From positions 1 through 55,212 of the forward strand of contig JAPLDS010000060.1 of assembly GCA_026391295.1 (NCBI GenBank): 55,212 nt of DNA, given 5' to 3'. A program made the position numbers and the translations under genes. The notes beneath the pieces are model-generated. The model saw only the letters and a program-made list of their open reading frames with translations, was not told where the DNA came from and searched no databases. The stretch comes from Bacteroidia bacterium. GTDB lineage: Bacteria; Bacteroidota; Bacteroidia; Bacteroidales; Prolixibacteraceae. Shown piece by piece: positions 8,489 to 20,223 of this stretch (position 1 is its first letter; each line of letters opens with the position of its first letter).

Positions 8489-11470
8489 ATGGTTCGGATA
8501 ATATTAATTCTTTTTATTGCATTTATAGGCTTGCAAAGCAATGCCCAAACAAAATCACGCCCTGCATTTTTGAATTATCAGTCAGATCAGTGGGTCGATT
8601 CGGTATTTAATTCCTTGTCATTAGATCAAAAGATTGGGCAGTTAATTGTTGTGCCAGCATTTTCACAAAAAGGGAGCAAGCATCAAGCGAGGTTGTTGAA
8701 GATGGTTCGCGAAAACAAAGTTGGGGGGATTATATCGATGCAAGGTGGACCTGTGCGGCATGCCAAGATGGTTAATGCTTTGCAAAAAGCCTCTGCAACA
8801 CCTCTCTTAGTCGCTATGGATGCTGAATATGGTCTCTCGATGCGACTGGATAGCTGTTTGAGATATCCGTATGGCTTTACTCTTGGATCAGTAGCGAACG
8901 ATTCTTTGGTTTTTCAAGTTGGATCAGACATTGGAAAACAATGTAAGCGCCTGGGTATTCACATTAATTTTGCTCCTGATGCCGATGTGAATAGTAATCC
9001 ACTTAACCCAGTAATCGGTTTCCGCTCGTATGGTGATAATCCGAATAAAGTTTTTCAAAAAGCTGTCCAATATGGACTTGGGCTGCAGTCGGAACATGTG
9101 TTGGCAACGCTAAAACATTTCCCAGGTCATGGCGATGCTCAAAAAGATTCTCATTTAACGCTTCCTACAATAACCCATTCACGAGCTCAGCTTGATTCTA
9201 TAGAGCTTTATCCCTTTCGCAAAGCGATAGATCAGGGCATTGGCGGCGTTATGACGGGCTTTTTAAATGTCCCTGCACTTGACAGCTCAGGCACTGCAGC
9301 TTCTCTGTCAAAATCTATTGTTCAGAAGATCTTGCTTGATGATTATGGGTTTGAAGGGTTGGTGGTGACCGACGCAATGAACATGGAAGGTGCTGTTGAT
9401 CAAGATGATAAAATTGGTGATTGCAGTGCCGAGATTAAAGCTTTGATGGCTGGAAATGATCTGCTTGAATTTGTTACGAACCCAGGTAGCGTTATTGAAG
9501 CGGTAAAGAAGGCCATTTCAAATGGTGAATTAACACAGGAATCAATTGAGCGTAAATGTCGGAAGATTTTGATGTTAAAACGGTGGGCTGGACTCGATCA
9601 TTTCAAGCCTATTGAGACCGCCAATCTGTATGCCGATCTAAACCAGTCGAGCTATCGTATGACGTTGCGCAATGTGGCTCAGAACTCTTTGACCGTGGTT
9701 CAAAACAGGGGAGATCTTCTTCCATTGCGACATCTCGATTCATTGAATATTGCAACAGTTAGCATCGGTAGCACTGGCATAACTACTTTTCAGCGCTCAG
9801 TTGGCCGATATGCACATACTGTTCATTTTTCGATCGGAAAAGATGCTGATGACGCAACTATAAAGAATTTGATCAATAAGCTGAAGAAATATAACTTAGT
9901 TATAGCGGGAGTAAATAACCTCGGCAATTTCGTCAAGTCGAATTACCGCGTTAGCACGTCTCAACAGAAAATTGTCCGTCAGATTACTGAAGCGACAAGA
10001 GCCATCGTTGTTGTATTGGGAAATCCATATGTTTTAGGCTATTTGGATGGTTTAGATAAAGCCCATGCAGTAGTTGAGGCCTATGAAGAGAGCAATGAGG
10101 CGCAAGATTTAGCTGGGCAGCTTATTTTTGGTGCTTTTGGTGCATCAGGTCAACTGCCTATTCATGTAAATGAGAGCTTCCATTCTGGGAATGGAATAAC
10201 TACCCCATCGTTGAACAGATTTAAATATACCCTTCCTGAGGAGTTAGGAGTCGACTCTGCATTTCTAAAAAAAAAAATCGACTCGTTAGTAAGCATCGGC
10301 ATAAACGCTAGGGCTTTCCCCGGGTGTGCCGTTTTTGTAGCAAAACAGGGAAAAGTAGTTTTGATGGAGGCTTATGGCTACCATACCTACAGCAAAGAAA
10401 AGGCTTTGTGCCTTGATGATCTATTTGATTTTGCTTCTTTGACCAAGGTTTTAGCTCCACTTCCAGTGCTTATGCAGCTGAAAGATCAGGGCAAATTGGA
10501 TGTTAAGGAGAAAATGAGTGCTTATTGGACCGATTGGAAAGGCTCGAATAAGAAAGATGTTGTGTTGGAGGATGTGCTCTCGCATCAAGCTCGGCTGAGG
10601 TCAGGAATTCCTTTTTGGTTAAAAGGTTCTGATGGGAAGGGGAGTTTTAAATCCAATTATTTTTCGAAAGATTCAACATCTCATTTTGGCTTGCGAGTCT
10701 CTAAAGAGTTATATACGATCAATAGTTTTCCCGATACTGTTGCGGCGATGATTCGAAAATCACCTTTGCTGAAGCAGAAGAAGTTTCTCTATTCTGATCT
10801 TGGGTTTATGCTCTTCCCACGCATGATCTCTTCGATGACGCATCAGGACTTTGAGCCCTATCTGAAAGCTAACTTTTACGCGCCATTAGGGGCCAGTTCT
10901 TTAGGATATAGGACCTATATTAATCATGATCTGACTGAGTTAGTCCCTACGGAGAATGACAAGATTTTTCGGCATGAACAGTTACAAGGTTTTGTCCACG
11001 ATGAAGGTGCGGCCATGTTAGGTGGTGTCTCGGGTAATGCTGGATTGTTTGGAACCGTTAATGATGCCGCTAAGGTGATGCAGATGTACCTCAATTATGG
11101 CACGTATGGTGGTGACCGTTATCTCGCTGATGCGACAGTCCGCAATTGGTCGAGTCGTCATTTCGAGAAGTCGAATAATCGCAGAGGGTATGGTTTTGAT
11201 AAGCCCCCTTTACGCAAGCGGCTAAAGAATGGTAAACTTGGTCCGCAGGATGTTTTAGGCACCGATTTAAGTTTTGGACATACTGGGTTTACGGGCACCT
11301 ATGCTTGGGCAGATCCCGCAACTGGGATTTTGGTATTGTTCTTTTCTAATCGCATCTATCCTACTCGCAACAACCATTTAATCAATCGGTTAAATATCAG
11401 GGAGCAAATTCATCAGGAGGCTTGTCGGATTCTTCAATCCGATACTCGCAGGCTGTTATCTAAAAAATGA
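8489..11470 (+). CDS. NagZ-like GH3 beta-N-acetylglucosaminidase fused to an AmiE-like (beta-lactamase-fold) serine hydrolase
   Basis: A 993-residue exported two-enzyme protein (signal peptide about 1-19). The N-terminal GH3 domain has the NagZ motif KHFPGHG at 209-215, the Asp-His dyad of the NagZ acid/base loop at D220/H222, and the nucleophile in VVTDAMNM at D295. A GH3 C-terminal-type domain follows to about residue 570. The C-terminal serine hydrolase has SxxK at S650-K653 (SLTK), a YSD motif at Y768 in the place of YxN, and HTG at 931-933 in the place of KTG. In Bacillus the same two activities are separate proteins, NagZ and AmiE (an N-acetylmuramyl-L-alanine amidase), encoded beside NamZ. 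The fused protein probably releases GlcNAc and trims peptide from muropeptides. An A11 run at about 10267-10277 leaves the frame intact. Confidence 0.92.
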   Translation: MVRIILILFIAFIGLQSNAQTKSRPAFLNYQSDQWVDSVFNSLSLDQKIGQLIVVPAFSQKGSKHQARLLKMVRENKVGGIISMQGGPVRHAKMVNALQKASATPLLVAMDAEYGLSMRLDSCLRYPYGFTLGSVANDSLVFQVGSDIGKQCKRLGIHINFAPDADVNSNPLNPVIGFRSYGDNPNKVFQKAVQYGLGLQSEHVLATLKHFPGHGDAQKDSHLTLPTITHSRAQLDSIELYPFRKAIDQGIGGVMTGFLNVPALDSSGTAASLSKSIVQKILLDDYGFEGLVVTDAMNMEGAVDQDDKIGDCSAEIKALMAGNDLLEFVTNPGSVIEAVKKAISNGELTQESIERKCRKILMLKRWAGLDHFKPIETANLYADLNQSSYRMTLRNVAQNSLTVVQNRGDLLPLRHLDSLNIATVSIGSTGITTFQRSVGRYAHTVHFSIGKDADDATIKNLINKLKKYNLVIAGVNNLGNFVKSNYRVSTSQQKIVRQITEATRAIVVVLGNPYVLGYLDGLDKAHAVVEAYEESNEAQDLAGQLIFGAFGASGQLPIHVNESFHSGNGITTPSLNRFKYTLPEELGVDSAFLKKKIDSLVSIGINARAFPGCAVFVAKQGKVVLMEAYGYHTYSKEKALCLDDLFDFASLTKVLAPLPVLMQLKDQGKLDVKEKMSAYWTDWKGSNKKDVVLEDVLSHQARLRSGIPFWLKGSDGKGSFKSNYFSKDSTSHFGLRVSKELYTINSFPDTVAAMIRKSPLLKQKKFLYSDLGFMLFPRMISSMTHQDFEPYLKANFYAPLGASSLGYRTYINHDLTELVPTENDKIFRHEQLQGFVHDEGAAMLGGVSGNAGLFGTVNDAAKVMQMYLNYGTYGGDRYLADATVRNWSSRHFEKSNNRRGYGFDKPPLRKRLKNGKLGPQDVLGTDLSFGHTGFTGTYAWADPATGILVLFFSNRIYPTRNNHLINRLNIREQIHQEACRILQSDTRRLLSKK

Positions 11471-11707: not shown

Positions 11708-11956
11708 ATGACTCAAAAAATCACCTTTAATGAGCTTCGAGATATCAAGGATCATTTGCCTCACGGATCAATGCAAAGGATTGCTCAGGAGCTAGGGATG
11801 GAAGTTGAAACAGTAAGGAATTATTTTGGTGGAACACATTATGATACGGGTACGAGTGTTGGGATGCACATTGAGCAAGGTCCTCAAGGTGGAATTATTT
11901 TACTTGACGACACTGCAATTTTAGATAAGGCCCATGAAATTTTAGAAGGAAAGTAA
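11708..11956 (+). CDS. Small HTH-like DNA-binding protein
   Basis: An 82-residue protein resembling a short conserved Bacteroidota family annotated only as DNA-binding protein. The N-terminal half (about residues 7-42) looks like a helix-turn-helix, with GSMQRIAQELGMEVETVRNYF matching a recognition-helix layout; the C-terminal half is a Gly-rich segment followed by a helix. The N-terminal Met context and a strong terminator 25 bases after the stop mark it as a complete monocistronic gene. It lies between the GH3 fusion and tRNA-Val. Its targets are unknown. Confidence 0.75.
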   Translation: MTQKITFNELRDIKDHLPHGSMQRIAQELGMEVETVRNYFGGTHYDTGTSVGMHIEQGPQGGIILLDDTAILDKAHEILEGK

Positions 11957-11980
11957 TAAATTCTTAAAAATAAGTTTGCT

Positions 11981-12010
11981 AACTGCCTCAGTGATGGGGC
12001 AGTTTTTTTA
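11981..12010 (+). terminator. Intrinsic terminator of the small DNA-binding protein gene
   Basis: Stem AACTGCC/GGCAGTT followed by T7, 25 bases after the stop codon at 11956. Confidence 0.85.
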
Positions 12011-12054
12011 TGTTTGAAATTTTGTAATTGCAAATGGTTTTTTCTCAAAGAATA

Positions 12055-12085
12055 TTTGGTATGAATGAAAAAAGGGCTATCTTTG
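12055..12085 (+). promoter_or_regulatory. Promoter of tRNA-Val (TTTG-N19-TAnnTTTG)
   Basis: TTTG at 12055-12058, exactly 19 bases, then TATCTTTG at 12078-12085. This is a full match to the Bacteroidota housekeeping promoter. Initiation would fall near 12092, about 35 bases before the mature 5' end of the tRNA. Confidence 0.8.
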
Positions 12086-12126
12086 CATCACTTTAAGAGG
12101 AGCCATTAGGTTCTGATTAAGTAAAA

Positions 12127-12201
12127 GGGAGCTTAGCTCAGTTGGTTCAGAGCATCTGCCTTACAAGCAGAGGGTCGATGGTTCGAACCCATCAGTTCCC
12201 A
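12127..12201 (+). tRNA. tRNA-Val (anticodon UAC)
   Basis: A complete cloverleaf can be drawn: acceptor strands 12127-12133 and 12194-12200 (GGGAGCT with AGTTCCC, one G-U pair), D stem GCTC/GAGC, anticodon stem TCTGC/GCAGA around loop CTTACAA with anticodon TAC at 12162-12164, and T stem GATGG/CCATC around TTCGAAC. Discriminator base A at 12201. CCA is not encoded. Promoter upstream and hairpin terminator downstream are both strong. Its 3' half recurs twice downstream in degenerate tRNA-like copies. Confidence 0.97.
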
Positions 12202-12207
12202 CGGAAA

Positions 12208-12242
12208 TAAAAGAGTTGCAACGTAAGTTGTGACTCTTTTTG
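12208..12242 (+). terminator. Intrinsic terminator of tRNA-Val
   Basis: Eleven-base stem (12212-12222 with 12227-12237, two G-U pairs, loop GTAA) followed by a T run. It is duplicated, with one base changed in the loop, at 12427-12461 as part of the 219-base repeat. Confidence 0.85.
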
Positions 12243-12261
12243 CTTTTAAGCAATTTCATAT

Positions 12262-12830
12262 CTCAGATATTTCGGTACGCTGTACCTCTGGCTTAAACCA
12301 CATTGCCTATTCTACAAGTATTGACGGTGCGCTGCACCTAGGTTTCTAATGTACAGCCAAAGTTCCTTGCATCCCGATTTTACATCGGGAGGGTCGATGG
12401 TTCGAACCCATCAGTTCCCACGGAAATAAAAGAGTTGCAACATAAGTTGTGACTCTTTTTGCTTTTAAGCAATTTCATATCTCAGATATTTCGGTACGCT
12501 GTACCTCTGGCTTAAATCTTATTGCCAATTCTACAAGTATTATCGGTGCTCTGCACCTCTAGCTTGCCATGTTTTGGTCCTACAGATATTTCGGTACGCT
12601 GTACCTCTGGCTTTGATCACATTGTTTTTCTACAAGTATTGACGGTGCTCTGCACCTCTAGCTTGCCATGTTTTGGTCCTACAGATATTTCGGTACGCTG
12701 TACCTCTGGCTTAAACCATATTGCCTATTCTACAAGTATTGACGGTGCGCTGCACCTCTAGCTTGCCATGTTTTTGTCCTATAGATATTTCGGTACGCTG
12801 TACCTACAATTATTCCCGGTACGCTGTCCC
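12262..12830. repeat. Array I of about 50-base hairpin monomers, alternating types A and B
   Basis: Type A cores (GGTACGCTGTACC) at 12274, 12493, 12593, 12692 and 12792, with a degraded one at 12818. Type B cores (GGTGCGCTGCACC or GGTGCTCTGCACC) at 12326, 12545, 12644 and 12744. Each B starts 51-52 bases after its A, and successive A cores from 12493 are 99-100 bases apart. A and B flanks are alignable (ACAG/A-rTATT before, CTCTrGCTT after), so both descend from one monomer of about 50 bases. The stem difference between A and B is a compensated A-T to G-C change. Open frames across this array are by-products of the repeats. Confidence 0.9.
12346..12420 (+). pseudogene. Degenerate tRNA-Val copy (pseudo-tRNA 1)
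   Basis: The 3' half (12389-12420) is identical to tRNA-Val from the variable region to the discriminator base. The 5' half is decayed but alignable: GTTCCTTGCATC at 12362-12373 against GTTCAGAGCATC at 12145-12156 of the real tRNA. The anticodon-arm position is taken by a hairpin TCCCGAT-TTTAC-ATCGGGA (12372-12390), two bases longer than in the tRNA. The 5' acceptor strand does not pair with the 3' strand, so a functional tRNA is unlikely. Confidence 0.65.
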
Positions 12831-13012
12831 TTTCGTTTTGATTTTATGGATTAAAATGTAATTTGATTCGCCATTCAATTTTTCTTCGTATTTTTCATCC
12901 TGAAAGTGATTGTTGCTTACATTAGATTTTGTCTGTTAAGGCTTGATTATATGCAATATATACCACTTCTGCTAGTTTCTATTTTAGATTATTAAGTGCA
13001 AAGTAACAAGCT

Positions 13013-13900
13013 ATGAAAAAACAAATTACCCCTGAACAGGATAACAAAAGAGCAAGCAGATTTACCTTCATTGGCTTTCGCATACTTGTGATCGCAATGT
13101 TGTTCATTACAAACATTTTGATAGCCCGGGCAGATGATCGGGATAAAATAGCTCCTGAAGACCGGATTGAAAACTGGAAAGGAAAGACTGTGCTTATTTT
13201 TACTCCACATCCGGATGATGATACCTTTGAATGCGGTGGCATCATGTCAATTTTGACAAAAAATGGAAACAAAGTGGTTTTGGTAATCTACACCAATGAT
13301 AACAAAGGATCACTTGACTTAGACATGACTAGCGAACGTTTGGCGCGGATTCGTCGGGTAGAGGAAGAGGAAGCCTGCAAATCGCTTGGTGTTCTGAAAG
13401 AAAATATTCATTGGCTAGGCTATGGTGATGGTGATCTGGAATATGCCGATCCTCAACGCTTGCGTGGAGAGGCCTCTCGGTTCATTAAAATGTTCAGACC
13501 CGATGCAATCTTCAGTATTGATCCTGGTGAAGACCATGAACGCTGGCACAAAACCGATCACCGCATGGCAGCTTTTATTACTCAGGATGCCTTTATTGCT
13601 TCAGAATGGCATTTGTATTATCCTCAACATTACCTAGACGAAAAGTTGATACCTTTCAGGGTTCCACTAGCCTTTTATTACTACACCATTGCCTCGAATT
13701 ACCAGGTGGATATCACATCGGTAATCGATCAGAAAATAGAAGCTTCGGCAAAACATGTTAGTCAGTTCTCGCCTTCACTTGATAAATATTCTCCTGATAT
13801 GTCCAAAGAAACCTATCAGAAAATCGATTCAGAGTTTAAAAAAATGGATAAAGATGGCGACCGGTATATCGAAAGGTTTCGAAGAATGGTCAATCCATAG
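13013..13900 (+). CDS. PIG-L (LmbE-like) family deacetylase, membrane-anchored or exported
   Basis: Zinc-dependent N-acetyl-sugar deacetylase family, 295 residues. A hydrophobic segment at about 21-40 after a basic N-terminus predicts a signal peptide or anchor. The first zinc motif is PHPDDD at 65-70 (the family usually has PHPDDE, so the last acidic residue is Asp here). The second is HKTDH at 179-183. The family acts on GlcNAc-linked or similar substrates; which one applies here is unknown. It is the only gene between the two hairpin arrays and the two pseudo-tRNA copies, so it looks like cargo of a tRNA-associated element. No integrase or transposase lies with it. The 182 bases upstream (12831-13012) hold nothing else I can name. 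Confidence 0.88.
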   Translation: MKKQITPEQDNKRASRFTFIGFRILVIAMLFITNILIARADDRDKIAPEDRIENWKGKTVLIFTPHPDDDTFECGGIMSILTKNGNKVVLVIYTNDNKGSLDLDMTSERLARIRRVEEEEACKSLGVLKENIHWLGYGDGDLEYADPQRLRGEASRFIKMFRPDAIFSIDPGEDHERWHKTDHRMAAFITQDAFIASEWHLYYPQHYLDEKLIPFRVPLAFYYYTIASNYQVDITSVIDQKIEASAKHVSQFSPSLDKYSPDMSKETYQKIDSEFKKMDKDGDRYIERFRRMVNP

Positions 13901-14010
13901 GAGAGTTTATTCCGAGTATTTTATTGAGTTCGATGTGTTGGGACATCGGATAATCAGTTTTGAATTATGGATCATAATCTATCTTGTCGTTATTTTATAA
14001 GTTAAAAAAG

Positions 14011-14195
14011 TCCTACAGATATTTCGGTACGCTGTACCTCTGGCTTAAACCATATTGCCAATTCTACAAGTATTATCGGTGCTCTGCACCTTTAACTATA
14101 CATTTTTGTCCTACAGATATTTCGGTACGCTGTACCTCTGGCTTAAACCATATTGCCAATTCTACAAGTATTATCGGTGCTCTGCACCTCTATTA
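14011..14195. repeat. Array II of A/B hairpin monomers
   Basis: Two A-B pairs: A at 14026 and 14124, B at 14078 and 14176 (spacings 52, 46 and 52 bases). Orientation is the same as array I. The last B monomer runs into pseudo-tRNA 2 through the same short junction sequence (CTAATGTrCAGC) that links B to pseudo-tRNA 1 in array I. Confidence 0.9.
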
Positions 14196-14270
14196 CTAAT
14201 GTGCAGCAAATGTTCAGAGTATCCCAATGTAAAATCGGGAGGGTCGATGGTTCGAACCCATTAGTTCCCC
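14196..14270 (+). pseudogene. Degenerate tRNA-Val copy (pseudo-tRNA 2)
   Basis: Positions 14239-14269 match the tRNA-Val 3' half with one change in the region before the acceptor (CATTAG for CATCAG) and C in place of the discriminator A. The 5' half is better preserved than in pseudo-tRNA 1: GTTCAGAGTATC at 14212-14223 differs at one base from the real tRNA. The distance from that block to the conserved 3' half is 29 bases in both pseudo-copies and 27 in the real gene, so the two copies share an ancestor that already had the two-base gain. Confidence 0.65.
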
Positions 14271-14282
14271 CAAAAGCATCGA

Positions 14283-14411
14283 TTATTTGTCTGTTGGATT
14301 GATCGCTAATAGGGCCAAGTAGCCATCACAGAGAAAACCTTCATAGCCCCAACACTCGCCGTTCCAGGTCTTCCAGTCTTTGGCCATAAGACCACAGAAT
14401 CCTTGGAAGTC
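14283..14411 (-). pseudogene. Separated C-terminal tail of the six-hairpin-glycosidase-like gene
   Basis: After the TGA at 14412-14414 the same frame stays open for 42 more codons to TAA at 14283-14285. The translation is rich in aromatic and Gly residues (DFQGFCGLMAKDW, TWNGECWGYEGF) and looks like real protein, not noise. It is almost certainly the original C-terminus of the upstream gene, cut off by a single in-frame stop. It ends 13 bases from pseudo-tRNA 2. Confidence 0.75.
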
Positions 14412-16157
14412 TCAATTTTTAACCCCTCGAAGTATTCCATCAGAGACCTGCTCTAACTCCTTGTTCATCCCTGCTTTCTTAAGTGCTTTTAAGGTAAAGT
14501 AACTCCAGTTTAAGGATGCACCACCATTTTCATATCGTTGGAAAGCATCACTACCATCCTCCTTCTCACCTCCACCCCAGCGTGGATCGTGGTGGTAGTA
14601 ATCCTCTCTGCGGATTGAAACCAAATTGCCGGGAACACCCAAGCTGAAATCGGTAAACCTCTCAACTTGCATCTTATTCCAGAATGCCTCCATAATACCC
14701 TTAATCTGGGGTTCAGGAACTAAATTGTAATAAACCGCCATGCTGTTTACATATAAAAACCAATAATCGTGTAGTTTGCCGTCCCTGCTTTTCCACCCAG
14801 CCAAAACGCCTGTTGCTGGATTGTAAAAAGTTTTAAAATATGAATCCTTTAGCTTTTCTGCATAATGGGCATACAATTGCGCATCCTCCTTTTTATTTAG
14901 ACTCTTTGATGTTTGAGACATCTGAACCAGAGCACCGTAAGTGATGGCATTACTAAAGGCGTCTTCATGACCAAATCCGATCGTATCCCACCAGTTTGCT
15001 GGTCGCGTTGTTTGGTCTGGCGCTCCGGAATTTCCCGATCTTTTATCTTCAACTAGTCCATTCTTATCGAGATCTCTTTTCATCTGACTATCCATCCAAC
15101 CTTTAATCACAGGATAGTATTTCTCTCCCCATTTTTTATCGTTTGAACCTTTGATGTAATTGCATGCCGAGATTACCAGCGATGGGTAGGAGTCGAGATA
15201 GGAGTCGTGTTTAGATGTATCTATTTTGGTGATTATTCCAGTTTTTTCCCATTCTGAATCGTACCCTTCAAGACCGTACCCTTTCATCCCATTTAGATAC
15301 CTCTCGATGGACATCCTAAGCAGGTCGAGCGCCGAAAGTGAACCCACGAGTGGTGGTGTTTTCATTGCAAGCATCGAGGAGAGAAAAAGGGTAAAGGCGC
15401 ACGGATCACTGCATGAGTTATTCGCAATAACCTGTAGTCTTGGATTCACTTGGAAAAGATTGAGATAGTTCCGTCTGTACCCCTCATATTTTTCCGCTTT
15501 AACACCAGGGAACTTTGGGTAAATGGAAGTGCAGGTCAGCGTGTATTGGATACTTTTTACGGTCTCATCTGCATTAGGCAAGCTAATGGAAATATAATTG
15601 GTTTTGTTTCTGCGGTTGGCATCATAGTTAATTGCAGTTGGATGATCGGCAACTACCTGAAAGGTTCCCATGTCCGGAAAATGGATGATAGCAGGCAGTT
15701 GGGTTCTGTTTCTCTCAGGCATTAGACCAAGAAGGGTCGCATGGTTTTCACGCTTATCAAAAATAAAGTCAATCGATTTTATCTTATTCTGTGGCAGATA
15801 AGTTGAGGTTATCACGATTTTTTTCTTCTCGAATTTAAAGCTCCATCCCTCGTTATTTGATGATCCTTTGGGATGAATCTTTACTTCTGAGTCAGAGATC
15901 TTCGAAATTTCAAATAGCTCATTTCCTTCGAGTTCTTTCCACTTGATTATATTTTTTGAAAGTATTTTCTTCCCCAACCCATCAACGGAGAAAAATTTTA
16001 TAAATGGAGCCTGCTGAACAAGCTGAATCGAGTAATAATCTGAACGATAGGCAAAACTTTCACTCTTTTCGCCTTTTGAAAGATTTGGAGCTAAAAAGGT
16101 TAGTGTTATTACTAAACCCCAGCTTAGTTTAAATCGTTTTAATATGTTCATAATCAA
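14412..16157 (-). CDS. Six-hairpin-glycosidase-like secreted protein, prematurely stopped
   Basis: A 581-residue protein with an N-terminal signal peptide (about 1-29). The first 230 residues look like a beta-sandwich. The rest is Trp/Tyr-rich and helical, with segments typical of (alpha/alpha)6 glycosidases (trehalase, glucoamylase and MGH1-type): QTTRPANWWDTIGFGHEDAFSNA-like acidic region around 385-405, and GGASLNWSYFTLKALKKAG near the end. I cannot name a substrate. The frame stops at TGA 14412-14414, but 42 more sense codons follow in the same frame. The full-length protein would be about 624 residues, so this copy lacks roughly the last 7 percent unless the stop is read through or is a sequencing error. 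No operon partner. Confidence 0.7.
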   Translation of the reverse strand: MIMNILKRFKLSWGLVITLTFLAPNLSKGEKSESFAYRSDYYSIQLVQQAPFIKFFSVDGLGKKILSKNIIKWKELEGNELFEISKISDSEVKIHPKGSSNNEGWSFKFEKKKIVITSTYLPQNKIKSIDFIFDKRENHATLLGLMPERNRTQLPAIIHFPDMGTFQVVADHPTAINYDANRRNKTNYISISLPNADETVKSIQYTLTCTSIYPKFPGVKAEKYEGYRRNYLNLFQVNPRLQVIANNSCSDPCAFTLFLSSMLAMKTPPLVGSLSALDLLRMSIERYLNGMKGYGLEGYDSEWEKTGIITKIDTSKHDSYLDSYPSLVISACNYIKGSNDKKWGEKYYPVIKGWMDSQMKRDLDKNGLVEDKRSGNSGAPDQTTRPANWWDTIGFGHEDAFSNAITYGALVQMSQTSKSLNKKEDAQLYAHYAEKLKDSYFKTFYNPATGVLAGWKSRDGKLHDYWFLYVNSMAVYYNLVPEPQIKGIMEAFWNKMQVERFTDFSLGVPGNLVSIRREDYYHHDPRWGGGEKEDGSDAFQRYENGGASLNWSYFTLKALKKAGMNKELEQVSDGILRGVKN

Positions 16158-16513: not shown

Positions 16514-18571
16514 ATGAAAGATCAAGATAAGTCTAAATTAGAGTTGATTGATGAATTAAAGGAGTACAAACAAAATTTTGACTCGTTAACGATTAAATTA
16601 GATACCAATATTTCAAGTTTAAAGGAATCAAAACAGAAACTTGTTGAGGCGACTAATCAATTGGCATTTCAATTTGAAGAGAGATTGCAGAGAGCCGCTG
16701 AGCTGATTGATGCCAATATAGAATTAGCGTATCAAAATCAAGAGAAGGCTAACCGAGCAGCTGAATTGATTGATGCCAATATTGAACTAGCTTTTCAAAA
16801 CCAAGAGAAAGAGAAACGAGTAGAAGAATTATTAGTTGCTAATAGAGCTATCGATATGTTAATAGGTGAAAGCAAGAAAACAGCGTTTGAGTTATTTCAG
16901 CGGTCACAAGAATCGCACGCGATGATGGATAATAATCCAGATATTATTGGACGATTTGATGAGAAATTCAGATATCTCTATATCAACCGCCCAATCGATA
17001 CTGGAATAGGTAGTTTGCCATCACAGATTATTGGTAAGACGATCGATGAACGTGGATTTTCCAAAGAACTTACTAAGAAATATAAAAATGCTCACCGCTA
17101 TGTCTTTGCCGCGGGCAAAGAGAAAATCATCGAGGTTTCATTACCGATAAATGGGGCTTTGCATTATTTCGAGAGCCGCTGGGCACCTGAATTTTCTTCG
17201 GATGGGAAAGTGGCAACAGCTCTATGCATCTCTCGTGATATAACAATTCGCAAACAAGCTGAAAATAAATTGATATATCACAACCAAGAACTAATCATTC
17301 AGAATAAAGAAAAGGAAAAGCGCGCGAAAGAATTAGTTAAAGCGAATAGGAAACTTTTAGTTGCAGAAAAGAAGGTGCGAAATTTTCTCAGTACTCTGGA
17401 GCAGAAAGTCGAAACCAGAACTGCACAATTAGTGATTGCGAAACAACGGGCAGAGCAGAGTGATCGTTTAAAAACAGCATTTCTTGCGAATATGAGTCAC
17501 GAAATAAGAACTCCGATGAATGGAATTCTGGGGTTTGCAGAACTCCTTAAAGAACCGAATCTGTCAGGCGTTGAACAGCAAGAATTTATTGAAATAATTG
17601 AAAAGAGTGGATTGCGAATGCTCAATATTATCAATAATATCATCGATATTTCAAAGATTGAATCTGGTTTAATCAAAATTAATCGGGCTGACTTTAATCT
17701 GAATGAAATCATCGATTATCTCCTTGCATTTTTCAAACCAGAATTGGAAAGCAAAAATCTAAAGATCTTATTTAGTAAGCCTTCCAACTTTGAAGAGTTG
17801 CGAATTAGCACCGATAAGGAAAAACTTCTTGCAGTACTTAGTAATCTAATTAAGAATGCAATTAAATATACCGATTCAGGTACTATTGCATTGGGTTATC
17901 AGCATAAACCAGGATTTCTTGAATTCTTTGTGAAGGATTCAGGTATAGGAATCTCTAAAAATAGACAAAAAGCCATTTTTGAACGTTTTATTCAAGCTGA
18001 TATTGAAGATATACATGCCTATCAAGGTGCAGGTTTAGGTCTCGCAATTTCAAAGTCTTATGTCGAATTAATGAAGGGTGAAATATGGGTTGACAGTGAA
18101 CCTGGGAAAGGATCGATATTTTATTTCACAATGCCCTACACGTCGATCGTTGATGCAGCAGTTGTAAAGAAAAATAAGATTTCAAATGTTCGGAGTCAAG
18201 AAAGAAAATTAAAAATCTTAATCGTTGAAGACGATGAAATATCAGAGCTCTATCTTGCACGAATTGTAAGCAAAATAGGCAGCCGTATTTTGGTTGCAAT
18301 TAATGGGTTTGAAGCGGTGCGTATATGTCGTGAGAACCTAGATCTCGACTTGATTTTGATGGATATTGGATTGCCTGATCTAGATGGTTACGAGGTAATA
18401 AAACAAATTCGGCACTTTAATAAGGAAGTGGTGATTATTACGCAAACAGGTTATTCATTCAAGACTGATCGCGAAAAGGCAATGAACAATGGATGCAATG
18501 CCTATATTTCAAAACCAATTGACAAGGCTGAACTTCTTACTTTAATCAATACCCATTGCTTTAAATCTTGA
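16514..18571 (+). CDS. Hybrid histidine kinase with repeated signalling helix, PAS, HisKA, HATPase and receiver domains
   Basis: A 685-residue cytosolic two-component hybrid. Residues 1-120 are coiled coil and contain a near-perfect repeat (RAAELIDANIELA plus QNQEK, twice), followed by a third weaker unit. A PAS fold follows at about 140-250 (NNPDIIGRFDEKFRYLYIN, ending in the SRDITIRKQAE linker). A second coiled-coil stretch with the same type of repeat (NQELIIQNKEKEKRAKEL) leads to HisKA with phosphoacceptor H329 (MSHEIRTPMNG). HATPase motifs are NLIKNAIKYT, DSGIGIS and GAGLGLAISK. The receiver has the acidic pair in VEDDE and phosphoacceptor D617 (LMDIGLPD). No membrane segments and no DNA-binding output, so a separate response regulator elsewhere is expected. 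Signal unknown. No operon partner. Confidence 0.93.
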   Translation: MKDQDKSKLELIDELKEYKQNFDSLTIKLDTNISSLKESKQKLVEATNQLAFQFEERLQRAAELIDANIELAYQNQEKANRAAELIDANIELAFQNQEKEKRVEELLVANRAIDMLIGESKKTAFELFQRSQESHAMMDNNPDIIGRFDEKFRYLYINRPIDTGIGSLPSQIIGKTIDERGFSKELTKKYKNAHRYVFAAGKEKIIEVSLPINGALHYFESRWAPEFSSDGKVATALCISRDITIRKQAENKLIYHNQELIIQNKEKEKRAKELVKANRKLLVAEKKVRNFLSTLEQKVETRTAQLVIAKQRAEQSDRLKTAFLANMSHEIRTPMNGILGFAELLKEPNLSGVEQQEFIEIIEKSGLRMLNIINNIIDISKIESGLIKINRADFNLNEIIDYLLAFFKPELESKNLKILFSKPSNFEELRISTDKEKLLAVLSNLIKNAIKYTDSGTIALGYQHKPGFLEFFVKDSGIGISKNRQKAIFERFIQADIEDIHAYQGAGLGLAISKSYVELMKGEIWVDSEPGKGSIFYFTMPYTSIVDAAVVKKNKISNVRSQERKLKILIVEDDEISELYLARIVSKIGSRILVAINGFEAVRICRENLDLDLILMDIGLPDLDGYEVIKQIRHFNKEVVIITQTGYSFKTDREKAMNNGCNAYISKPIDKAELLTLINTHCFKS

Positions 18572-18814: not shown

Positions 18815-18856
18815 TTTTGCAATTAGTTGTTAATCATCCATGAATATTATATTAAA

Positions 18857-20223
18857 ATGGGTTTGTCAGGTAGTTCTTACTCTATCCAGCCAATTTCTGG
18901 AAATCTAAATTTCAGTCAGGCTCGCCATCTATTGGATCGTTCTCTTTTTGGAGCGTCGAAGGGGGAGATTGATAATTTAGTTGGTAAAAATATCTTTTTT
19001 GCAATAAGTGTTTTGATGCAGACTCCTAAATCAGTATCAATTCCTATTTCCATTGATGCTAAAGATTTAGATGTTACTCTAGGTGCAACCTGGATAAATA
19101 CACCCTATAATGGCACCTATAATACCTACCGACTTCGAAGTCTTTATTCGTGGTGGATTGGTAATATGGTTCAGCAAAATACCTCCCTGATTGAAAAGAT
19201 GGTCCTTTTTTGGCATAACCATTTCGTTACAGAAATGGCGACTGTTGTAAATGCATCTTTTTTATACAACTATGTGCAGGTATTGCGAAATTCGGCTTTA
19301 GGTAATATAAAGCAGTTAATTTCTGAAATAACGATTTGCCCTGCAATGTTGGTCTACCTAAATGGAGAATCCAATAAAGCAACGGCTCCGAATGAAAATT
19401 ACGGCCGTGAATTATTTGAATTATTTGCAATTGGTAAGGGCCCTTTGATTTCATCTGGGAATTATACGAATTATACAGAGGGTGATATTCGTGAGGCCGC
19501 AAAAGTTTTAACTGGATGGAGAATTGATCGAACGTTAAATAAGTCCTACTTCGACACAACAGGACACGATAAGTCTACCAAGATATTTTCTGACGCCTTT
19601 ATGAAGGCTACTATTGTGAATAAAGAAGCTAGTGAATACAAGGATTTGGTGCTTTAATAAAAAATCCAATTGATTTTGCTGTGGGCATTTTTCGTAAAAG
19701 CGAAATTAATCTGTCGACTAACCTTCTCAATAATTATGAAATTTGGAGTTCGACGTATTATGCTTGTCAAGCCATGGAAATGACTCTTGGTGATCCGCCA
19801 GATGTTGCTGGATGGCCAGAGTATTATAAAGAACCGTCTTATTCAGAGCTTTGGATAAATGCTTCCACCATCCCACAACGAACTGTTTTTTCAGATACTT
19901 TATGTTTAACGGGAATTACTAAAGGTGGTTTCAAATATTTTGTTGATCCTTTTGTTTTAACTTCAAAAATAAATGATCCATCTAAGGCGGATAACTTGTT
20001 AAATGGGTTGGCGTTAATTTTACTTCCAGTTCCACTTTCTCCCTTGCAGCTTATCCAATTGAAAGAGGTTTTGATACCAGGATTGCCTGATTCTACTTGG
20101 GCTTTTGAGTGGCTTAAATACATAGGTGCACCAAGCGATGCTGTACAGAAGGGATTGGTTGGTAAGAAGTTGCAAGCTGTAATTGCTCAAATAATGAGAT
20201 TGCCAGAATTTTACCTGTCTTAA
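18857..20223 (+). pseudogene. DUF1800 family protein, broken by an internal deletion and frameshift
   Basis: Frame 1 (ATG 18857 to TAA 19655-19657) carries the N-terminal DUF1800 hallmarks: WHNHFVTE, GRELFELFAIGKG, NYTEGDIREAAKVLTGW. Frame 2 takes over at about 19648 (GALIKNPIDFAVG) and runs to TAA at 20221-20223 with the family's late motifs (GDPPDVAGWPEY). Together they make about 455 residues, but the segment between EYKDLV and the IKNP motif, where the family normally has a stretch with an ARFICRKLYR-type helix, is missing: about 70-80 residues by memory of the family. So the lesion is a deletion plus a frameshift, not a single slipped base. No signal peptide. The DUF1501 partner 18 bases downstream is intact. 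Confidence 0.8.

Follow-up and report, generated by a model that had tools for sequence, protein, structure and literature searches.

Two displaced tRNA-Val copies in a Bacteroidia genome are probable scars of small GIY-YIG nuclease elements that occupy tRNA genes

The stretch of DNA analysed here, referred to as the window, comprises the first 55,212 bases of the 67,885-base contig 50 (JAPLDS010000060.1) in the 2.93-Mb draft genome of a Bacteroidia bacterium of the family Prolixibacteraceae (assembly GCA_026391295.1; G000 among the genomes compared), and it carries an intact tRNA-Val gene followed by two altered copies of the same tRNA. These copies are probably scars left by small free-standing elements that encode a GIY-YIG nuclease and reside in tRNA genes. 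Elsewhere in the Bacteroidota, such elements form units of a shared anatomy that recur beside many tRNA types, that exist as occupied, tandem and relic alleles alongside empty ones, and whose nuclease gene evolves under purifying selection. Each unit sits inside a tRNA gene, with an intact tRNA upstream and the original 3′ end of the gene downstream. The units are probably selfish DNA.

The sole tRNA call of ARAGORN, tRNA-Val(tac) at 12127-12202 on the forward strand (Rfam tRNA, 71.4 bits), bears out the single intact tRNA-Val(UAC) of the initial annotation and represents the functional copy upstream of the scars, its sequence being identical in most relatives of the genus. It is followed on the same strand by a terminator (12203-12245), read by eye as an inverted repeat plus a T run, that recurs after the first altered copy. 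An Rfam scan of positions 11900-14500 recovered the intact tRNA only and recognised neither altered copy. R1, a covariance model built on 24 tRNA copies from relatives, located two displaced tRNA-Val remnants, both on the forward strand, at 12350-12421 (73.5 bits, E = 4.9e-17) and 14200-14271 (61.0 bits, E = 7.7e-14), close to the positions first proposed for them (12346-12420 and 14196-14270). Remnant 1 outscored the functional tRNA (73.5 vs 68.4 bits), and the one further match in the window had an E value of 2.2. The model spans 72 nt in each copy compared with 70 nt in the real tRNA, which confirms the gain of two bases that the initial annotation noticed in the anticodon-arm region of both copies. 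Remnant 1 reproduces the tRNA 3′ half plus terminator with 99% identity over 71 nt (repeat at 12389-12459), and remnant 2 matches the tRNA 3′ half with 97% identity over 31 nt. In both cases fidelity ends at the anticodon arm, whose place is taken by a longer and dissimilar hairpin: a perfect signature hairpin, CCCGAT-TTTAC-ATCGGG, found by pattern match at 12373-12389 (forward strand) in remnant 1, and CCCAAT-GTAAA-ATCGGG at 14223-14239 (forward strand) in the sequence of remnant 2, where the loop is altered and looks as if it had been turned round with respect to that of remnant 1.

This anatomy is common to the copies that accompany GIY-YIG open reading frames (ORFs) in relatives. Starting from 124 such ORFs with a comparable upstream tRNA, we kept the 91 with a 3′-half score of at least 34 and, from these, the 90 with a tRNA of 72-78 nt, which correspond to 70 loci. 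Identity between each copy and its upstream tRNA was 0.94-0.97 in the 3′ acceptor strand, T arm and variable loop; high identity in this 3′ part was required by the selection, and the informative figures are those of the other arms. The D arm was still recognisable (0.79, shuffled 0.59), the 5′ acceptor strand was not (0.45, shuffled 0.55), and the anticodon arm was no closer than chance (0.62, shuffled 0.61) because it is usually replaced by a different hairpin. Hence, the decay of the 5′ half described in the initial annotation is borne out only in part. A hairpin of the form CCCG...CGGG was present in 78 of the 90 copies (61 of the 70 loci) compared with 3 of the 90 functional tRNAs, and its longer form, CCCGA...TCGGG, in 71 copies compared with 3 functional tRNAs. 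Judged by distance from the 3′ end, it is located at the anticodon arm in 60 copies, at the T arm in seven, as in tRNA-Asp units, and elsewhere in 11. Thus, a typical remnant has lost the 5′ acceptor strand, carries a GC-rich CCCGA/TCGGG-type hairpin instead of one arm and continues with a close copy of the tRNA 3′ part into the host flank.

The hairpin is common to copies of Val, Arg, Asp, Ala, Pro and Glu tRNAs. In an alignment of 24 copies its five outer pairs are invariant, its tip uses all four Watson-Crick pairs, and 98.3% of the cells are paired compared with 83.3% in shuffles. Given that these copies were chosen for the hairpin, the invariant pairs prove nothing and it is the covariation at the tip that does, the covariation of the T stem being inherited from the tRNAs. 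The anticodon triplet occurred in the hairpin loop in 19 of 78 cases, with 8.7 expected from shuffles, an excess to be read with caution given the shortness of the loops and the dependence among related copies. Three observations stand beside these. A second hairpin type, approximately AGAGCYTGTSCCGA...TCGGSATTCGAA, was seen by eye in Pro, Val and Arg tRNA remnants (L119, L122, L171 and L205), where it occupies an identical position within the T arm. Tandem arrays made of remnants only were found at L115:1760-2132 (five, spaced by 77 nt) and L116:2280-2850 (eight, spaced by 74 nt) in a scan of 63 of the 80 named loci described below, with a spacing too tight for a nuclease ORF between remnants. 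Finally, decayed tRNA-Ala copies lie upstream of tRNA-Ala(GGC) in G000:C9 (L092:1450-1540) and G006:C7 (L095:1440-1820); here CCCGA-type hairpins stand in for the D arm as well as the anticodon arm, and in G006 there are several copies in tandem.

The tRNA-Val locus was compared among 16 members of the genus (the window plus L044-L060). Its upstream side, consisting of a GH3/beta-lactamase gene, an 82-aa ORF and the tRNA, is common to 12 of them, and the downstream side is variable. Copies fitting the model were present in six (G000, G001, G002, G004, G006 and G016), which is a lower bound, several contigs ending shortly 3′ of the tRNA. The sister genome G006 carries a PIG-L gene 98% identical to that of the window and is arranged as tRNA, copy, GIY-YIG ORF, copy, copy, A/B repeats, PIG-L, A/B repeats and copy, A and B being the two hairpin types of the window arrays; the scars around its GIY-YIG ORF have the same hairpin as those of the window, at the same locus. 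G001 has the order tRNA, GIY-YIG ORF, copy, a HipA gene in three pieces plus a helix-turn-helix gene, and copy, and G002 has tRNA, GIY-YIG ORF, copy and then another GIY-YIG ORF, truncated after its start by the end of the contig. In G004, ParD/ParE genes occupy the interval ahead of the last copy. GIY-YIG matches in G000 were confined to two ORFs, of 443 and 453 aa, with no free-standing GIY-YIG gene among them, and A1, a specific profile of eight aligned GIY-YIG proteins, gave no match in this genome. Since G000 is without a free-standing GIY-YIG gene while G006 keeps one between the same scars, the window is best read as a relic that appears to have lost the nuclease ORF and kept the scars.

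The association with tRNA genes extends across the phylum. A pattern joining the hairpin to a T-arm motif was found in 41 of 140 genomes of the family, some of these being single matches without a tRNA within the 3 kb examined, and the backwards pattern in none. Profile A1 had matches in 249 of 395 sampled genomes of the phylum. A peptide-pattern scan of 84,980 species genomes of all bacteria and archaea, which reaches close relatives only, yielded 211 relatives; the best 80 of these are labelled as Bacteroidota, except for one bin labelled Actinomyces, and the genome-by-genome searches were centred on this phylum. Two samples were analysed, 110 loci in total: 80 named loci (the best 80 relatives, with 114 GIY-YIG ORFs) and 30 phylum loci. 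A tRNA on the same strand was present within 500 nt upstream of 78 of the 100 named ORFs with at least 500 nt of upstream DNA and of 34 of the 41 ORFs in the phylum sample, compared with 13 of 220 control ORFs of at least 200 aa at the same loci. ARAGORN at times calls a remnant a tRNA; excluding doubtful and hairpin-bearing calls, the counts were 71/100 and 34/41 by ORF and 55/68 and 25/27 by locus. Downstream, a copy of the last 36 nt of the tRNA followed the ORF in 63 of 83 (named) and 28 of 41 (phylum) cases, or 48/60 and 22/26 by locus, while control windows reached an equal copy score in 25 of 7259 and 26 of 2211 cases, respectively. Among 20 weaker A1 matches at divergent loci, 14 had an upstream tRNA and eight a clear copy, and the tRNAs concerned include Asn, Met, Gly, Phe, Ser, Pro, Asp and Val. 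The six divergent loci without an upstream tRNA (L290, L295, L298, L300, L303 and L304) showed, by eye, a tRNA 3′ end or a seemingly whole tRNA in the 100 nt after the ORF.

In relatives, the copy directly adjoins the stop codon of a GIY-YIG ORF of about 80 aa that lies a short way downstream of an intact tRNA. This ORF ends in TAG in 63 of 113 and 27 of 45 cases, compared with 40 of 179 complete control ORFs, and its stop codon is often made of letters that also belong to the tRNA, such as the TAG in TAGCTCAG (positions 8-10) or the one in the D loop. The gene lies next to its presumed tRNA target, as in free-standing homing endonucleases, and apparently outside any intron, introns themselves not having been searched for. 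Window positions 12240-12830 had no DNA match in plasmids or phages, and tblastn with one nuclease of 81 aa had none in plasmids or in 50,697 phage records; a scan of IMG/VR with the nuclease matched one contig.

Alleles with and without units were found at one orthologous tRNA-Val locus in another genus, that of G124, in which the downstream flank is conserved; 11 genomes with good flank matches were compared (L257-L267). G125 and G126 are empty, the second tRNA-Val running through its terminator straight into the flank. This flank is the same as that found 3′ of the last scar in G124, G127, G094 and G100. ORF-bearing alleles comprise three units each in G124, G127 (one ORF broken) and G094, two ORFs in G100, one ORF plus four copies in G096 and one ORF at a contig edge in G117. 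For G121 and G122 a scar was present without any nuclease in the DNA compared, and for G098 that DNA contained no tRNA. Between the last scar and the tRNA of the empty site, the alignment is unbroken through the T arm, acceptor end, terminator and flank, and the anticodon arm differs. Tandem arrays, with a unit of about 315-470 bp that consists of a tRNA 3′ part plus terminator, a single-domain GIY-YIG ORF and a tRNA remnant, were exemplified by five 315-nt units behind tRNA-Asp in G457 and three 358-nt units behind tRNA-Arg in G428. These tandems of three to five copies, together with the empty, occupied and relic states of one locus, agree with the earlier proposal that the locus grows by adding units, and the view that the two window copies share an ancestor and mark the ends of units that arrived at the tRNA was likewise upheld.

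The eight aligned nucleases are proteins of 81-85 aa that consist essentially of the GIY-YIG domain alone (PF01541, E values of 1e-12 to 9e-18 in three members). Y5, Y16, R27 and E63, which we take to be the catalytic GIY-YIG residues, are invariant in all eight rows, and AlphaFold predicts the fold with a pLDDT (per-residue confidence score) of 89. By both sequence and fold, the best neighbours in the PDB are UPF0213 and SLX1, followed by UvrC and the catalytic domain of I-TevI, with modest scores: the UPF0213-type structure 1zg2 had a profile E of 4.8e-06 and was also the best fold match (Foldseek E = 1.4e-03), and no Foldseek match reached an E of 0.001. A scan of NCBIfam matched TIGR01453 alone, in five of the eight proteins (best E = 1.3e-4). 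The ratio of nonsynonymous to synonymous substitution rates (dN/dS) was 0.04-0.11 in the seven of 12 pairs with unsaturated dS, a rough guide given that dS exceeded 1 in all seven, but the gene is clearly under purifying selection. A nuclease tree was built from 142 of 159 ORFs (at least 65 aa; 81 columns kept; 25 of 131 inner branches starred). In this tree, the tRNA type changes at least 20 times over 115 labelled rows (minimum 11, shuffled mean 46.5) and the family label changes 22 times over 77 rows (shuffled mean 45.5), a pattern that suggests clustering by target with some switches and on which we base no claim of any particular transfer.

These data are consistent with the following mechanism. 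The nuclease would break a tRNA gene that lacks the unit, and repair templated by an occupied copy would insert the unit into the break. As the unit would supply its own tRNA 3′ end, the upstream tRNA would stay whole, and the old 3′ end of the host would be left as the remnant. Breaks repaired or recombined between the direct repeats of the tRNA 3′ end could then lead either to tandem expansion or to loss of the ORF. In the window, the ORF would have been lost, and the scars would then have been colonised by repetitive extragenic palindromic (REP) repeats and the PIG-L gene.

Several points weigh against this interpretation. The homing step is inferred, and presence and absence at one locus cannot alone separate gain from loss. 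In an occupied allele, the upstream tRNA looks no less open to cleavage than in an empty one, which leaves donor resistance without an explanation, and homing alone likewise does not account for the use of one hairpin sequence across tRNA types. The 90 copies, from 70 loci, are not all independent, and 12 of them have no hairpin. No tRNA was detected upstream of 22/100, 7/41 and 6/20 nuclease ORFs in the named, phylum and divergent samples, respectively, and 12 of the 20 divergent loci were without a clear copy. In addition, unlike the GIY-YIG homing enzymes of phages and introns, the proteins have no separate domain for DNA binding, and our claim is therefore that the element works like a homing endonuclease, not that it is a member of the Seg family. 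As to the hairpin, one guess is that an SLX1-like, structure-specific enzyme recognising it could explain its occurrence in many tRNA types. More broadly, we tentatively suggest, with rather less confidence than in the origin of the window copies, that the units may represent a phylum-wide and apparently undescribed class of minimal mobile element. Such an element would consist of a structure-specific GIY-YIG gene that uses a tRNA as safe harbour and repairs it on insertion, with a terminal CCCGA/TCGGG hairpin replacing a tRNA arm as the recognition structure of the nuclease; it would move between isotypes, expand in tandem and leave intervals between scars that are taken by ParDE, HipA-like or PIG-L genes.

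The unit might instead be a toxin-antitoxin-like or regulatory module, in which RNA is the target of the GIY-YIG protein and the tRNA promoter drives a hairpinned tRNA mimic that serves as a decoy or antidote RNA. The hairpin is indeed a covarying secondary structure, the unit lies closely behind a tRNA gene and the nuclease is under purifying selection, all of which would suit such a module. Nevertheless, the solved relatives are UPF0213, SLX1, UvrC and I-TevI, the last three being DNA nucleases, and a selfish element accounts better for the occurrence of empty, tandem and relic alleles. This explanation is unlikely.

Preferential conservation of the tRNA 3′ half had led the initial annotation to see attachment sites of tyrosine integrases, and in this case the copies would be attR remnants of islands that have lost their integrase. 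Integrase genes do occur at the same tRNA in the genus. In G007 a Phage_integrase gene adjoins a 48-nt tRNA repeat 11.8 kb from tRNA-Val (L052:4941-16789), in G008 an integrase gene at tRNA-Val is cut by the contig end (L056:9816-10757) and in G014 an integrase fragment lies directly 3′ of tRNA-Val (L055:2247-2495); this tRNA-Val is thus an integrase site in G007 and probably in G008 and G014. G000 itself has four Phage_integrase (PF00589) matches, all of them elsewhere in the genome; on the contig of the window no PF00589 match was found, in line with the lack of an integrase remarked on at first. However, the integrase-type repeat of G007 has a normal anticodon arm without the hairpin and reaches only 36.6 bits with the scar model, whereas both window copies have the CCC..GGG hairpin, as do 78 of the 90 copies linked to a GIY-YIG gene, usually in place of the anticodon arm. 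Moreover, the terminal repeat is not a plain tRNA 3′ segment, its faithful part ending at the anticodon arm, and the closest genome with a complete unit at this locus has a GIY-YIG gene and not an integrase. Copies of this type go with a GIY-YIG gene, and we consequently rejected the attachment-site reading for the window copies, for which it is quite improbable, even though the same tRNA serves as an integrase site in G007.

Ordinary tandem duplication of a tRNA followed by decay, with the GIY-YIG ORFs as passengers, finds a precedent in the tandem arrays of intact tRNA-Val genes in the family, namely three genes in G023 (L061) and ten, at a spacing of about 99 nt, in G028 (L062:6163-7131), which may themselves be products of a like amplification. 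Independent decay would not, however, give the same hairpin in Val, Arg, Asp, Ala, Pro and Glu copies, nor would it set a conserved nuclease stop codon at the edge of the copy or yield strong purifying selection, and we regard this origin as very improbable.

The arrays and the PIG-L gene of the window, both of which were confirmed, probably belong with the later history of the scars. The hairpin arrays (12264-12847 and 14010-14191) are built of the cores A = GGTACGCTGTACC and B = GGTGCTCTGCACC and comprise, all on the forward strand, one A+B pair between the tRNA and the first scar (12264-12341), in the place held by the GIY-YIG ORF in G001 and G002, an array of alternating A and B hairpins (12483-12847) and a second A/B array (14010-14191). 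The three were delimited by sequence or repeat search, and the first two also by comparison with hairpins flanking REP-associated tyrosine transposases (RAYTs). In G014 (L183), hairpins at 1406, 1461 and 1980 surround a Y1_Tnp (RAYT-type) ORF at 1489-1965 and have the same cores as the window. Among eight RAYT loci examined, the exact window cores were found in this one and related cores in L182, and in G013 the same cores are scattered about as A+B pairs. Four Y1_Tnp matches were found in G000, and the exact A core is confined to the tRNA-Val locus, where it occurs seven times. By their sequence, the arrays are REP-like repeats of RAYT type, similar to bacterial interspersed mosaic elements (BIMEs), that settled among the scars as a second, independent layer. 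REP/RAYT activity as the maker of the tRNA copies, suggested by the A/B hairpins that flank them and by the same cores around the RAYT of G014, was rejected and is very improbable, in that the A/B core differs from the CCCGA hairpin and occurs in only 1 of 110 GIY-YIG loci (L096, which is G006 itself), scars therefore arising without REP repeats.

The PIG-L deacetylase gene (13013-13900, forward strand; PF02585, E = 1e-27) lies between the two scars as cargo or bystander, and genes 97-98% identical to it are present in G006, G016 and G004. It had been anticipated that an attachment-site model would fail if the gene were found in a genome without the arrays, and this was partly the case: in G004 the PIG-L gene (97%) is on another contig, and the nearby 9.7 kb contain no A/B repeat, tRNA or tRNA copy, the one trace of a repeat being a lone CCCGACGCGTCGGG palindrome. 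PIG-L was accordingly rejected as the defining cargo; in G004 it lies away from array and scar, and is therefore not an integral part of the element, while the scar interval of that genome holds ParDE instead.

The locus is framed by genes that served as anchors in the comparison of relatives. Upstream, on the forward strand, are the GH3/beta-lactamase gene (8489-11470; Pfam), syntenic in relatives, and the conserved 82-aa ORF (11708-11956); downstream, on the reverse strand, is a glycosidase-like gene (14412-16157; Pfam and synteny) that holds this position in G000, G006, G016 and G004. Farther along, an ORF for a hybrid histidine kinase contains two copies of a 63-nt tandem repeat (16704-16830), and a DUF1800 gene (18827-20223), which adjoins a DUF1501 gene, looks split into two consecutive ORFs, perhaps by a frameshift.

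If the units do home, very small autonomous mobile elements live as parasites of tRNA genes throughout a major phylum of bacteria. This would account for a class of tRNA-like fragments and for stray genes of the GIY-YIG family in Bacteroidota, and it would offer a test system for tRNA-gene amplification, for the origin of tRNA fragments and for cost-free insertion into an essential RNA gene. A full-text literature search, with most subscription journals and preprints outside its scope, found no bacterial chromosomal GIY-YIG unit with tRNA remnants and turned up phage SegB and fungal mitochondrial GIY-YIG elements. A 2006 survey of the GIY-YIG superfamily (PMC1564403) contained, under the terms searched, no passage on chromosomal units linked to tRNAs. 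Among known systems, tRNA islands of tyrosine integrases also duplicate the tRNA 3′ end at the far boundary and keep an intact tRNA upstream, whereas the GIY-YIG unit has no integrase, has an arm replaced by a hairpin and measures 0.3-0.5 kb. Stand-alone GIY-YIG proteins of UPF0213 type and SLX1 are the closest solved relatives of the nuclease, but nothing in the names of the matched entries points to tRNA genes, SLX1 being titled a structure-specific nuclease. REP/BIME repeats of RAYT transposases share with the window the A/B hairpin cores that flank the RAYT of G014, but they form a separate layer of repeats at the tRNA-Val locus. In fungal mitochondria, intronless mobile endonuclease ORFs carry a copy of the 3′ end of their host gene. 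They resemble our units in supplying their own 3′ part of the host gene and displacing the old one, and differ in that their host genes code for proteins and reside in organelles.

The nearest published system is phage SegB. SegB of phages T4 and T6 is a free-standing GIY-YIG homing endonuclease encoded in the phage tRNA region (PMC13096335; PMC2988022), and for T6 the authors infer that recombination between the 5′ region of tRNA-Tyr and the 3′ region of segB led to amplification of a tRNA segment. As in the Bacteroidota, a GIY-YIG gene lies among tRNA genes, and the amplification in T6 resembles the Bacteroidota tandems, with ORF ends that run into D-arm sequence. SegB, however, is a phage protein, while the Bacteroidota units are chromosomal, encode a protein of about 80 aa and leave a hairpinned tRNA remnant with the upstream tRNA whole. 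Taken together, the element resembles free-standing GIY-YIG homing genes, there is a real possibility that it forms a class of its own, and, provided that it does home, it would be the chromosomal counterpart of phage SegB.

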